Assembly (NCBI GenBank): GCA_023511795.1
Contig: JAIMAU010000003.1
Location: 124,001-188,000 of the forward strand
Length of the DNA stretch: 64,000 bases
Direction of reading: 5' to 3'
Origin: Armatimonadota bacterium
GTDB lineage: Bacteria; Armatimonadota; UBA5829; DTJY01
Shown: positions 45,325-52,272 of the stretch, one piece after another
Layout: every line of letters starts with the position of its first letter
How positions within the stretch are numbered: the stretch's first letter is position 1
The notes under the pieces: model-generated
The model's input: only the letters and a program-made list of their open reading frames with translations
Database searches by the model: none
Told to the model about the DNA's origin: nothing
Position numbers and translations under genes: made by a program

Positions 45325-46128
45325 TTGAGTAGCCCTAATGATATAATGCTCATAGCTGACGTGCCAGTAAACGCTGGCTACATGGATATTCTCCACATGA
45401 GCTCTTATACCTATTTTTACTATGGGCTAGCAATCTGTATTGTTATTGGGGTCCCAATCACATCGGCTCTCTGGATGCACCGGAAACTTCATGCCCCATT
45501 GAAATACCTCGCCTATGGGATTCTAACGTTCATTATCTCCCAAGTCTTACGCCTCCCCACGCTTGAAATAATTAGAAGGGCCACCGGTGAACAACATGAG
45601 TCTGCCACAATTCTTTGGTTGGCATCTCTTGCACTCACCGCAGGCTTTTTCGAAGAGGTAGCGCGATATATTGGCTTTTTATTTCTTTTTCGTGGCGAGC
45701 GCAATCCTCAGAATGCGGTAATGTACGGGCTAGGACACGGTGGGTTCGAAACATCACTCGTCGCCCTTCAGATGCTTTCGGTATTACGGATGCTTTCCGC
45801 CTATGAAAGATTAGACATTTCAGCTGTTCATCTCAACGCTCAGACCCTTGACGTTATTGAATTTGCTAAAACCGGATGGCTTCCCATGGCAGGCGCTTTC
45901 GAGCGCATTGCGACACTTCCCGTTCATGTTGCTCTCTCGCTGGTAGTTCTGCAGGCTTTTTCAAGGCAAGACAGGTCCTGGCTGGTTCTTGCAATAGGCA
46001 TCCATGCTGGAATCAACTTTTTTGCCATATTTGCATCAAGACACCTGGGTCTCTTCTGGACTGAAATTCTCATTGGTCTCTTTGCAATCGGAGCGATACT
46101 TTCGGTACGAAAGTTAATAAACGATTGA
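45325..46128 (+). CDS. YhfC-type intramembrane metalloprotease-like protein
   Basis: The 267 residues span about seven or eight membrane helices. Conserved motifs resemble YhfC/CAAX-protease-like (ABI) proteins: FFEEVARYIGFLF with two glutamates, GLGHGGFE with a histidine, and HAGINFFAI. These residues form the active site of the glutamic-type intramembrane proteases. The annotated start is a TTG at 45325; the next in-frame start, an ATG at 45346 (MLIADV), is possible too. No SD is clear at either. Confidence 0.8.
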   Translation: MSSPNDIMLIADVPVNAGYMDILHMSSYTYFYYGLAICIVIGVPITSALWMHRKLHAPLKYLAYGILTFIISQVLRLPTLEIIRRATGEQHESATILWLASLALTAGFFEEVARYIGFLFLFRGERNPQNAVMYGLGHGGFETSLVALQMLSVLRMLSAYERLDISAVHLNAQTLDVIEFAKTGWLPMAGAFERIATLPVHVALSLVVLQAFSRQDRSWLVLAIGIHAGINFFAIFASRHLGLFWTEILIGLFAIGAILSVRKLIND

Positions 46129-47617: not shown

Positions 47618-50212
47618 TTAACTTGGCTCAAATGGGATTATTAACGCAAGATTGGGATGATAGGTCTTAATCCAATAGCCACGCCAGGGCTCAAGTATGC
47701 AAATATTGCCAAAGCCAATATCTACTGCTCCATACTCTGAGTGGACGTTGTCCCAGAAATAAAGGCATGGTTCAATCCAACCATAGTCTGCTGCCGTCTC
47801 AACTGAAATAACGCTTTTGCCGTTAGAAACTAAACAGCTGTTCACATCAACAATATAGTTAAATGGATGCCCAATCATATGGTAACCGGTATTCGGCAAA
47901 CCAATCCAAAAATCTGCTCTTGGCTCATAATTCCCCAAACCTTCAAATACAATGGTATGATTCTGCGACGATAAAAGGCACAAACCCAAACCCAATCGAA
48001 TTACGGGAAAGGTATACGACTGATAACTATCATAAATAACGAATGATTTGGTAAAATTATCCCAGTGTGCTAGCAACCCGTCTATTGGTATTCCTGCAAA
48101 TACCTGCTCAGGCTTAGATGTCGCAGAAATTGCCGGAATGGAAATCAGATTGGCCCCTGGTATGACAGTGCCTTTTGGCGATGTGTAGACCTCCAAAGGT
48201 ATATCACAAACAATATCACTTGCGAATCTCGGGCGAATCTGAGGTTTTAGCTGCCCGGCTTCCAAAGCAAGCGTGCAAACACCTGTTACTGTAACATAGC
48301 TACCAACAGGCGGTTCAGGAATCGGGTTCCTCAGATTGGAAAGCGAAACGGTCAACTCGCTGGGTAATTTAGGCAAAGTCCCATCTGATATATTGAACCA
48401 CTCAGTTCCAACTTGAGTCACCTTGCCCCAAGTCTTGACTAGAAGACCCGCGTTTGAGAGTCCTTGCAATAAATCTTCATATAATGAACCCATCCCACTA
48501 CCGCGATTTCCAACGTACAAGTTGGGCGTCCCCAATGGAGGCGGAGCATTGTTGCTCCCACGACTTTCGAAAACATACGCATGTATAAGTTTCTGACCAC
48601 CAACGACCTGAACTTCGCCTGTTAGGGTTGCTAGCGAGCCTGTAAGTGCTTCACAATTACCATTGACCTGTATTCCAGCAGAACGGTCGCTTTCACATAT
48701 CCATATGCAGTCAGTGAAAGCATCGCTCCCTGCGATAACAGGCTTGTTGCTAAGTCGGACTAACCTGCCCTCCTGAAGCGAAGAGATGTCCCCAATAGTG
48801 GGGACATCTAAGACAGTATTAACCACTTGAACATTCAGCTTTGCCATGCCTTGTGTATATACGCTTGAATTCTCGTAAGCTATTGCCTCGATGACATGTG
48901 TGCCATCAGCAACCGCAGTAGTATCCCACATATACTGGTAAGGTGGAGATGTTTGGGTGGCAACTAGATTGTCATCTATATAGAATTCAACTTTGGCAAT
49001 GCCAGAGGCATCACTTGCTTCGACAGCAATTGCGACCAAACCATGCGCCACTTTTTCAGGGTTGGGGCTAGTTATGCTCACACTTGGCGGAGTTGCGTAA
49101 GGCGCCATAAGCGGGTCACCAGACACCACAGATTTCCAATAAATACAAGGTGTTGCCGCTAAAAAGCTCTCCGCCACATTATAGCCCTGAAGGTATCTAT
49201 CGAACAAAATTGTGGGATATGTCGCTACAGTAACGAACGGCTCGGAGACAAAACCATTAACGGCTGATGCTCCTTGGGCAATTAAATCAACTATTAGCGA
49301 TTGAGTACCCGGTGTCCACGGGTCGGTAAATGTCCTTCCACTGCTAGAAACTACTGTGTCAGCAATGGACCCAGGCGCAAAATAATTCGAAGTATATAAG
49401 GAATAGCTAAAACTCGCCTCTGCGCTTCCCCAACCAAAGTAACCCATTACACCCTGCTGGCCGCCGACAAACTCATTCATTCTTGAATCAAAAGTCACGT
49501 CATCATAGTAGGTCTGCCATCCAGCACTAAACAAAGCATGGTTTGCTGCCCGGATGCGATCGTTAACAAGCATGTATTGAGCATATCCACTACTCGCACC
49601 GTCCAGAATGAAGAGGCCGTTATTAGGCTGGGCTGCTAAAGAGTCATCAATCATTCGGCGAATATCAGCCTCCGTACGAGCATCAAGACGGGTTACGGCG
49701 TAGAAATGCTTACCATTGAAATCAAGTTTGTGAGTGAAGTACTGAACAGGAGCTGGCGGATTAGCAGTTGGACCATAAGGGTTTTGTATCACGTCCTTAA
49801 TACTTGGTTCTCCAACACAAGTCAGGATGCTGTTAACCGAGAGCGGGCCGCTGAAGGCAACATCATCGTAATGAGCCCCAAGAGGAATTCCTTTGGTTAG
49901 AACAATGTAATCAATGCGGTCGTGTAACCCTGGAGTGTTGTTTATGTAGTCGCGTATAGGCGCAACGATATTGTTCTCACAATCCGACTTGCTAGTATAT
50001 TCGGATGTTGAGCACCGAATGTGACAAACATTCTTTGCAGGGATACCGCGTCTCTGCTGATAATATGCGGCTATCGACTGTGAGATGGGGCTATTGTCAT
50101 TTACGACGAGAAGAACGTTTTTTGGTCCCCCACCGCCAATGCAAATGCTGGGCAAACAAATACTCGCCAAAGCTGCAAGCAGTACACCAATAAGCGGCCT
50201 ATTTCTAAACAT
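47618..50212 (-). CDS. TIGR03790-type exported protein with Ig-like domain
   Basis: The 864 residues start with a signal peptide and the TIGR03790 region (NVLLVVNDNSPISQSIAAYY, DYIVLTKGIPLGAHYD, and SGDPLMAPYATPP near residue 375). An immunoglobulin-like domain follows (about 380-470; GIAKVEFYIDDNLVA, TTAVADGTHVIEAIAY), then an OB-like and further C-terminal domains without a recognised family. Enzyme activity has not been shown for the family as far as I know. It is likely secreted. The gene lies behind the PEP-CTERM pair. Confidence 0.85.
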   Translation of the reverse strand: MFRNRPLIGVLLAALASICLPSICIGGGGPKNVLLVVNDNSPISQSIAAYYQQRRGIPAKNVCHIRCSTSEYTSKSDCENNIVAPIRDYINNTPGLHDRIDYIVLTKGIPLGAHYDDVAFSGPLSVNSILTCVGEPSIKDVIQNPYGPTANPPAPVQYFTHKLDFNGKHFYAVTRLDARTEADIRRMIDDSLAAQPNNGLFILDGASSGYAQYMLVNDRIRAANHALFSAGWQTYYDDVTFDSRMNEFVGGQQGVMGYFGWGSAEASFSYSLYTSNYFAPGSIADTVVSSSGRTFTDPWTPGTQSLIVDLIAQGASAVNGFVSEPFVTVATYPTILFDRYLQGYNVAESFLAATPCIYWKSVVSGDPLMAPYATPPSVSITSPNPEKVAHGLVAIAVEASDASGIAKVEFYIDDNLVATQTSPPYQYMWDTTAVADGTHVIEAIAYENSSVYTQGMAKLNVQVVNTVLDVPTIGDISSLQEGRLVRLSNKPVIAGSDAFTDCIWICESDRSAGIQVNGNCEALTGSLATLTGEVQVVGGQKLIHAYVFESRGSNNAPPPLGTPNLYVGNRGSGMGSLYEDLLQGLSNAGLLVKTWGKVTQVGTEWFNISDGTLPKLPSELTVSLSNLRNPIPEPPVGSYVTVTGVCTLALEAGQLKPQIRPRFASDIVCDIPLEVYTSPKGTVIPGANLISIPAISATSKPEQVFAGIPIDGLLAHWDNFTKSFVIYDSYQSYTFPVIRLGLGLCLLSSQNHTIVFEGLGNYEPRADFWIGLPNTGYHMIGHPFNYIVDVNSCLVSNGKSVISVETAADYGWIEPCLYFWDNVHSEYGAVDIGFGNICILEPWRGYWIKTYHPNLALIIPFEPS

Positions 50213-50452: not shown

Positions 50453-51010
50453 CTATTTTCTCCTTCTAAGGATTGGGAGCAACCCGCCAGTGAGACCAAA
50501 CAACGCCAGCATCGAGCTCGGCTCCGGAATCAACATAGCTGGGCCGGGCACGTATACAGTCCATTCCGTGCCGGGGGCCATTCCGTCCATCGTCACTGCA
50601 ATTCCCTCGGTAAGGTAGCTATTGGGAACTATTAAGTGGAAGTAGCCCTCCCAAGCAGTGTGGTCTGGAATGACATCCTCCAAGCTATTCGCCGTCCAAA
50701 TTGCATTGTCTTTTCTCGGCACCCACTGTCGCGTTTGAATCCAGAAATTCCAAGTAACCTCCGGATGGTTCACAGGCCCAGAACCAACCCATGGCTTGTA
50801 AATGCCTGTGTTTGGCACCTCCGCACGGACTATCAGCTGGCCGAATGGTATCGTTTGGTTTTCATAGCATGTGACCTTGTAGACATACTCGTAAGTTTGC
50901 GGGTCAAAGCTTACAAACTCACAGCTGGGTGGAACAAATTCCTGAGCCCAAGCACCCCCGAAGCAAATTCCTGCAAGTGCGAGCATTGCAGCTAGCCGAA
51001 GGACCATTTT
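50453..51010 (-). CDS. PEP-CTERM sorting-domain protein (second of pair)
   Basis: A 185-residue exported protein with an N-terminal signal (MKMVLRLAAMLALAGICFGG) and the C-terminal PEP-CTERM signal: IPEPSSMLALFGLTGG followed by a hydrophobic stretch and RRRK. Exosortase enzymes remove this tail at the cell envelope, so an exosortase must exist elsewhere. The core is beta-rich, and its FDPQTYEYVYKVT matches FNPNTWTYTYKVT of the neighbour, showing the two are paralogues. I prefer the ATG at 51010; the GTG at 51025 lies inside the SD. Confidence 0.85.
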   Translation of the reverse strand, partial: KMVLRLAAMLALAGICFGGAWAQEFVPPSCEFVSFDPQTYEYVYKVTCYENQTIPFGQLIVRAEVPNTGIYKPWVGSGPVNHPEVTWNFWIQTRQWVPRKDNAIWTANSLEDVIPDHTAWEGYFHLIVPNSYLTEGIAVTMDGMAPGTEWTVYVPGPAMLIPEPSSMLALFGLTGGLLPILRRRK

Positions 51011-51069
51011 CATACTCCAACTCACCTCCTCAGCCCCTTAGAAGTATTTTAAAATTGCAAAGGGCCTGT

Positions 51070-51645
51070 TTATTTTCTACGCCCGCGCATGATGATAACG
51101 GGTATGCCCCCCACAAACATACCCGCTAATATTGCCAAACTTGACGGCTCGGGTATCATGCCAGGAACCATTAGGCTTGTTTCATTGCGGCTTTCCAGCA
51201 AACCACCGCCCATAGTTCCAATAATTCCCGGGACAGGTCGAGTGTTTGGTACGGTGAGGTAAAAGTAACCAACAAGTGGAGCATCAAGATATTGACCTGG
51301 CGGAACTGGGTCGCCCATTCCAGAATACCAAATGTAAAGAGAAACATCCCCAGAGCCAGGATTCCAATAAGTTAGCCGGTTACTCCACCCCCAGCTTTCA
51401 CCATCAACAATTATCCCTGACATTGAATAGGCAAAGTTTAAGGGAGTATAAGCTCTAACCTCAAAATGGTCAAAAGAGTAGATCGAATCAGGCACGTTCC
51501 ATTGGGTTACTTTGTAGGTATACGTCCACGTGTTCGGGTTAAAACCCAAATACTGGACTGTCGGGAAAGTAACAGCAAGTGCACCTGAGCTGGTGACGAA
51601 GGCAAGAAGCGCAATCACAACCACGAAGCGGAAAAATTTATACAC
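51070..51645 (-). CDS. PEP-CTERM sorting-domain protein (first of pair)
   Basis: The GTG at 51645 is the start chosen because AAGGAGGTGAG lies 7 nt upstream; the frame runs further upstream. It yields a signal peptide, MYKFFRFVVVIALLAFVTSS, and 191 residues ending in IPEPSSLAILAGMFVGG ... GRRK. The core is a paralogue of the gene 59 bp downstream. Both are likely surface-exposed or extracellular matrix proteins sorted by an exosortase. It is the first gene behind a promoter and an approximately 300-nt leader. Confidence 0.85.
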   Translation of the reverse strand: MYKFFRFVVVIALLAFVTSSGALAVTFPTVQYLGFNPNTWTYTYKVTQWNVPDSIYSFDHFEVRAYTPLNFAYSMSGIIVDGESWGWSNRLTYWNPGSGDVSLYIWYSGMGDPVPPGQYLDAPLVGYFYLTVPNTRPVPGIIGTMGGGLLESRNETSLMVPGMIPEPSSLAILAGMFVGGIPVIIMRGRRK

Positions 51646-51942
51646 GCTCTTGCTCACCTCCTTTTCGAAGGGCATCAAACCCTCCGGTGCCCCGGGCTAG
51701 GAATCGGAATCGCCGGCTGTACGAACAAAGATTTTCTTCAAACCAGAAAATGGTTTTGAAGGAGAATAGAGGTAATCAAGAGGTATGCTGGGAAACCATC
51801 AGCCTCTTTTTCTCCTGTCCCTTACACTGCAAAATTATTTTGCTTCCTAGGGGCTCGCCACATGCCATATTATTTTGCAGCGGCTGTGGGTCACCGCTCC
51901 CCGGAAACTATGTTGGTCGGTAAGTTTTCTACCGATACCAAC
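51646..51942 (-). ncRNA. approximately 300-nt structured 5' leader of the PEP-CTERM transcript (RNA element candidate)
   Basis: Downstream of the promoter the minus-strand leader can form (plus coordinates) a 13-bp stem at 51910-51944 (ATGTTGGT plus CGGTA with TACCG plus ACCAACAT), a closing stem of TTCC/GGGG at 51844-51853 with 51899-51906 that encloses a 5-bp hairpin AGCGG/CCGCT (51879-51898), and a further stem at 51736-51761. The decamer ATTATTTTGC occurs twice, at 51834 and 51869. No known riboswitch class matched my memory; it is a candidate regulatory RNA only. The plus strand holds no credible gene here. Confidence 0.5.
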
Positions 51943-51948
51943 ATGTGC

Positions 51949-51977
51949 AGTATAAACCCAATTGCCAAGGTTGTCAA
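51949..51977 (-). promoter_or_regulatory. near-consensus sigma-70 promoter of the PEP-CTERM pair
   Basis: On the minus strand TTGACA (51977-51972), exactly 17 bp, TATACT (51954-51949). Transcription should start near 51942, at the foot of the first hairpin. Confidence 0.85.
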
Positions 51978-52159
51978 GGTGATTTTTCTGATATTTTTAA
52001 AAACAGGTAATTTTACCAGTTATTTAACGTCTTAGCCCAGTAGTTTTCACACCAAAGTATTTAAAACAAAGCATTAATGACATAGTTTGCCCTAATTTCC
52101 AAAAAAACATTCTACAGAGCCATCGAAAAGGTAATTAAGTCAGTGGATTCGTGGTTGTG

Positions 52160-52188: not shown

Positions 52189-52272
52189 AAGTTTGGCCTG
52201 CCAAGAAAGCTTATAGGTGGGAATATATGAAACAGTTTATTAGTGTCTTCTGAAATAAAAAGGAGCTCTACG

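Follow-up and report, generated by a model that had tools for sequence, protein, structure and literature searches.

A palindromic operator in helical phase with sigma-70 promoters, the probable activator site of an exosortase-substrate regulon in Armatimonadota

The DNA upstream of a pair of PEP-CTERM genes in the 64-kb window (the whole stretch of Armatimonadota DNA that was analysed) is probably a sigma-70 promoter which is controlled by an activator and belongs to a regulon of exosortase substrates in this phylum. The main control element is a lineage-specific operator-promoter unit lying upstream of the mRNA leader (Table 1), and its operator, which precedes the promoter, was overlooked by the original prediction; the leader fold, on which that prediction was centred, is not the central feature. 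The promoter is genuine and one of a group of Armatimonadota promoters, not described before, which have a palindromic DNA site in common and drive genes for exosortase-sorted surface proteins.

Table 1. Features of the PEP-CTERM operon and its upstream region (positions are those of the window)
Feature	Positions	Strand	Remarks
PEP-CTERM-like protein 1	51070..51645	-	Signal peptide, IPEPSS, TM segment, RGRRK; no family-library match
PEP-CTERM protein 2	50453..51013	-	PF07589 and TIGR02595, both just under cut-off
TIGR03790-family secreted protein	47618..50212	-	Third gene of the conserved set; E-value 2.5e-50
mRNA leader, ~297 nt	51646..51942	-	Extent inferred from promoter; 98.0% identical to G001; fold z -2.3 to -3.1
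5′ hairpin, 14 pairs, two helices	51910..51944	-	MFE fold; absent in G003
Long-range stem around inner hairpin	51842..51908	-	MFE fold; no match in other leaders
GCAAAATAATTTTGC, local 6-bp hairpin or repeat copy	51829..51843	-	From sequence
GGAGAA...UUCUCC element	51761..51815	-	3′ strand (51783-51763) can alternatively pair with Shine-Dalgarno; candidate two-state switch
Shine-Dalgarno GGAGG, first gene	51657..51661	-	Predicted paired; unpaired probability ~0.02
-35 element TTGACA	51972..51977	-	33 bp from TTACC half-site; TTGACA also in G001, G003 and G007
-10 element TATACT	51949..51954	-	G003 has TAGACTGCACATG at equivalent position; start predicted near 51942
Operator palindrome CTGGTAAAATTACCTG (consensus CTGGTANNATTACCAG)	52004..52019	-	Weight matrix 31.3/37.2; 95% identical to G001
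T-run TTTTT, promoter side of operator	51999..52003	-	Fixed in search patterns

The operon comprises the PEP-CTERM pair followed by a TIGR03790 gene, a set found, among the genomes compared, only in the window's own genome (G000), a congener (G001), a member of the same family (G003) and a member of the same class (G007), with the same gene order in all four. The tails of both window PEP-CTERM proteins, read by eye, have the form IPEPSS...TM...RRK; each combines a signal peptide with the PEP-TM-RRR tail of an exosortase substrate, and PEP-CTERM protein 2 was recovered with its neighbours at 16.2 bits in the genome search. The GTG at 51645, taken as the end of the leader in the original prediction, is supported as the start codon by its Shine-Dalgarno sequence and by the G003 orthologue, which begins with ATG at the same place after GGAGGTGAG. 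A second TIGR03790 copy lies on contig 16 of the window's own genome, and a YhfC-family intramembrane metalloprotease gene (45325-46128) is located near the operon.

The near-consensus minus-strand promoter reported earlier was confirmed. Its two elements are separated by a 17-bp spacer and match the consensus at 11 of 12 positions; it is identical in the congener and was found again in two further genera (G003, G007). The consensus score taken by itself is modest, with five sites of at least 9/12 found in 3.5 kb against 3.7 expected.

The window palindrome with its T-run is one of approximately 70 copies of the operator CTGGTANNATTACCAGTTTTT in the window's Armatimonadota class. When 291 genomes of the phylum were searched for the pattern GTANNNTTACCNGTTTTT, the matches proved to be concentrated in the 28 genomes of this class (72 sites examined), with few in the reversed-pattern control. 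A near-consensus sigma-70 promoter of TTGAC type is present at 39 of these 72 sites and a PEP-CTERM ORF lies downstream of 27, compared with 0/16 for both features at the sites in the rest of the phylum; about half of the class sites have no recognisable promoter or PEP-CTERM gene. The window and 38 other operator sites have promoters of the TTGACA/TATAAT type, and the left-half bases left free by the pattern complete the palindrome, with C in 34/39 and G in 28/39. Using a weight matrix constructed without the window's genus, reversed sequence gave 0 hits per Mb at a score of at least 12, and the window operator, scored as a 23-mer, is the only site of such strength within the window. In the 84,980 species genomes scanned, the strict form of the site occurs at 26 places, 17 in Armatimonadota and nine in others, of which 15/17 and 0/9, respectively, have a phased TTGAC promoter (p 2e-5), although many of the 17 strict-form genomes also belong to the class set, making the scan a test of specificity more than an independent replication.

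Operator and promoter are kept in all four orthologous operons, the distances from TTACC to the -35 element being 32, 33, 33 and 45 bp; in G007 the operator is weaker (17.6/37.2) and lies exactly 45 bp away. In the comparison with the congener, the 21-bp spacer between operator and -35 element is only about 60% identical, well below the operator itself. Several regulon members that are not PEP-CTERM genes encode large secreted proteins which extend past the DNA stretch examined, with no PEP-CTERM tail within that stretch. A strong operator was found upstream of only four of the 12 PEP-CTERM matches in the window's own genome, which shows that other controls exist. One PEP-CTERM gene of this genome (C7:121k, at G000:C7 ~120.5 kb) is preceded by two tandem operator-promoter units 144 bp apart (L170:1500-1704), both with TTGACA-17-TATACT.

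Across the sites, the distance from TTACC to the -35 element falls at 22–23, 32–35, 42–46, 56 and 66 bp, with one site at 27 bp. The distances have a period of approximately 11 bp (R 0.86), and 0/20,000 random sets were as periodic, also when the first cluster was omitted; the promoters used were picked by score and not by distance. A dyad thus placed upstream of the -35 element in helical phase, as in class-I activation, is arranged as expected for an activator located on the same DNA face as RNA polymerase. The operator, its symmetry, this phasing, the association with PEP-CTERM genes, the conservation and the restriction to one lineage can all be read from the sequences compared. We propose that a dimeric DNA-binding protein would recognise CTGGTANNATTACCAG on the same helix face as RNA polymerase, with the operator centred at about -60, -70 or -81 at most sites, and that the bound protein would stimulate transcription of genes whose products are PEP-CTERM proteins or other secreted surface proteins, in this case the PEP-CTERM pair and the TIGR03790 gene. 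Binding, activation and the identity of the protein are inferred at this point.

The preference for activation over repression is based on position and phasing, which suggest it at the level of sequence. Near-consensus promoters are often a companion of repression, and a repressor could be envisaged at the operator; however, the sites lie at or beyond about -60 in helical register and none overlaps the promoter, making a repressor unlikely. Class-I activators such as CRP bind at about -60 and beyond, in helical register.

The exosortase (EpsH) gene of the window's own genome is present in a single copy (G000:C13:27428-28192, E-value 6e-61) beside DUF3485 and EPS genes, in a locus (L286:6871-15091) which encodes a Wzz/ParA kinase, SLBB exporter, sugar transferase, epimerase, DUF3485 protein and O-antigen ligase. 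No regulator gene was found at this locus, a DNA-binding domain being present in 0/10 of the gene products examined, and it has no operator. A strong palindrome (GCTGGTAGAATTACCGG) in another genome (G009:C384, L243) precedes a response-regulator gene and lacks a clear promoter; this gene is a candidate for the regulator, or the site may be a chance occurrence.

The leader, whose extent is taken from the promoter, is structured much as originally described. The 5′ hairpin, the UUCCGGGG/CCCCUAGGAA stem and the hairpin at 51761-51736 are all present in the MFE fold, GCAAAATAAT does occur twice, and the fold of the leader is more stable than those of dinucleotide shuffles in three runs (z -2.26, -2.65, and -3.08). 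It is more similar between the window's genome and the congener (Table 1) than the DNA upstream of the promoter (81.6%) or the genes (~95%; 95.5%). While about 12% of fourfold sites (range 10–15%) and ~17% of the upstream DNA have diverged, only 2.0% of the leader has changed (p 9e-9 against fourfold sites, p 5e-9 against upstream DNA), and the leader is therefore considered to be under strong purifying selection; against the whole of gene 1 the difference reaches only p 0.07. G003 retains the promoter, a GCACATG just past the -10 element and the ribosome-binding site, without the 5′ hairpin. A short ORF in the leader (MVSQHTS) was dismissed, having no counterpart in G003. In the set compared, leaders exceed coding segments in folding (p 0.002), with no such excess over upstream segments (p 0.25). 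The leader is probably functional in the window's genus; it is a structured 5′ UTR on which selection in this genus is strong, most likely acting on the stability or translation control of this particular transcript.

Such translation control could take the form of a two-state switch, in which the GGAGAA...UUCUCC element and the Shine-Dalgarno sequence compete for 51783-51763 and an RNA-binding protein, small RNA or temperature acts as the gate. The Shine-Dalgarno region is complementary to 51783-51763 over 14 bp (duplex -20.4 kcal/mol, p 0.03 in G000) and is predicted to be almost entirely paired, and the best anti-Shine-Dalgarno of G003 has the corresponding location, within a similar GGAGA/UCUCC helix. 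However, complementarity in G003 is at chance level (p 0.43), the switch helix of G000 by itself is not unusual (p 0.09), and occlusion of the Shine-Dalgarno was not general among the leaders compared, a regulon-wide occlusion rule having been discarded on these grounds; we regard a switch as decidedly unlikely. A broader scheme is equally speculative, and doubtful to a similar degree: Armatimonadota would have a dedicated activator acting on CTGGTANNATTACCAG at sigma-70 promoters, with a second layer at the window operon and at C7:121k, where conserved structured leaders would occlude the start until an export or matrix-building signal is received.

A riboswitch, or a recurring structured RNA motif controlling exosortase substrates, as suggested originally, is an improbable reading of the leader. 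Structure and selection speak for it, the leader being conserved above the coding regions within the genus. The leader of the C7:121k gene (302 nt; L170:1711-2013 compared with L282) is also in line with it, being 98.3% conserved against 92.9% for its gene and having a strong fold (z -3.3 to -4.6), but it is unlike the window leader by covariance model. The searches gave a riboswitch or recurring motif no support. No Rfam family matched the leader, with nothing credible even at E-values up to 10, and over the whole window a tRNA was the sole Rfam match. Covariance models of the two leader halves (R1 and R2) matched only their two source sequences among 76 loci, these being the orthologous leaders, including those of G003 and G007, and 72 other loci; built on two near-identical sequences, such models are weak detectors of distant relatives. 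Substitutions between G000 and G001 are not biased toward preserving structure (P 0.53 and 0.24, no better than random), with too few changes to test covariation. An apparently covarying hairpin of G000 and G003 (GGAGA...UCUCC) was set aside as evidence, as it involves two sequences and pairs easily by chance.

No paralogous leaders were identified in the window's own genome, where a third PEP-CTERM leader shows no raised conservation (93.8%), and a protein scan of the genome contigs gave no matches. Searched against 100 relatives, the leader DNA has a full-length match only in the congener, the remaining matches being short and chance-like. The leaders of other regulon members are from 9 to ~470 nt in length and differ in sequence, and given this variable length and lack of a common element, the proposed leader motif common to exosortase substrates is unlikely. 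Even less credible, and indeed hardly to be entertained, is the palindrome with its T-run as an intrinsic terminator for transcription coming from upstream: the hairpin and the TTTTT behind it do have a terminator-like form, that of a weak one, but the stem is short and A+T-rich, the upstream neighbour is divergent (starting at 52243 on the plus strand), leaving no same-strand gene to terminate, and neither the phasing to the promoter nor the PEP-CTERM link is expected of terminators.

The operator-promoter unit, with its dyad upstream of the -35 element at steps of one helical turn, resembles CRP-type class-I promoters, and the helical phasing leads to a direct prediction on mechanism. The site itself, CTGGTA-N4-TACCAG, is not known to be a CRP or FNR site. 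Its ACTGGT...ACCAGT half-sites presumably resemble those of the DasR site and other GntR/HutC-type operators, a likeness which serves as a lead only, with a CTGGT-ACCAG spacing of 6 in the window-type operator against 4 in DasR-type sites. Regulators of the GntR/HutC type are mostly known as repressors. The leader, being long and structured with an occludable Shine-Dalgarno, is similar to translational riboswitches and stabilising structured 5′ UTRs, although unlike translational riboswitches it has no known aptamer, covariation or recurrence.

No PEP-CTERM operator of Armatimonadota was found in the literature searched, which covered papers available without subscription. Among PEP-CTERM genes, Haft et al. 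(2006; PMC1569441) reported a regulatory site for those of Proteobacteria only; this motif, 17 nt long with TTTACA at its end, is found at about 63 nt from a sigma-54 -24/-12 box and is linked to PrsK/PrsR. The authors expected more regulators and DNA motifs to be discovered, as many PEP-CTERM genes inside and outside Proteobacteria do not have that site (Haft et al., 2006), and the operator described here is one such motif, in a largely uncultured phylum. It offers a way in, through sequence, to the regulator and to the membership of the exosortase matrix programme, including the large secreted proteins. In both systems a shared upstream DNA site marks many PEP-CTERM genes of one lineage and the upstream non-coding regions are long; the proteobacterial box is tied to sigma-54, whereas the Armatimonadota site is a 16-bp palindrome with a T5 run, 22–66 bp from a sigma-70 promoter.
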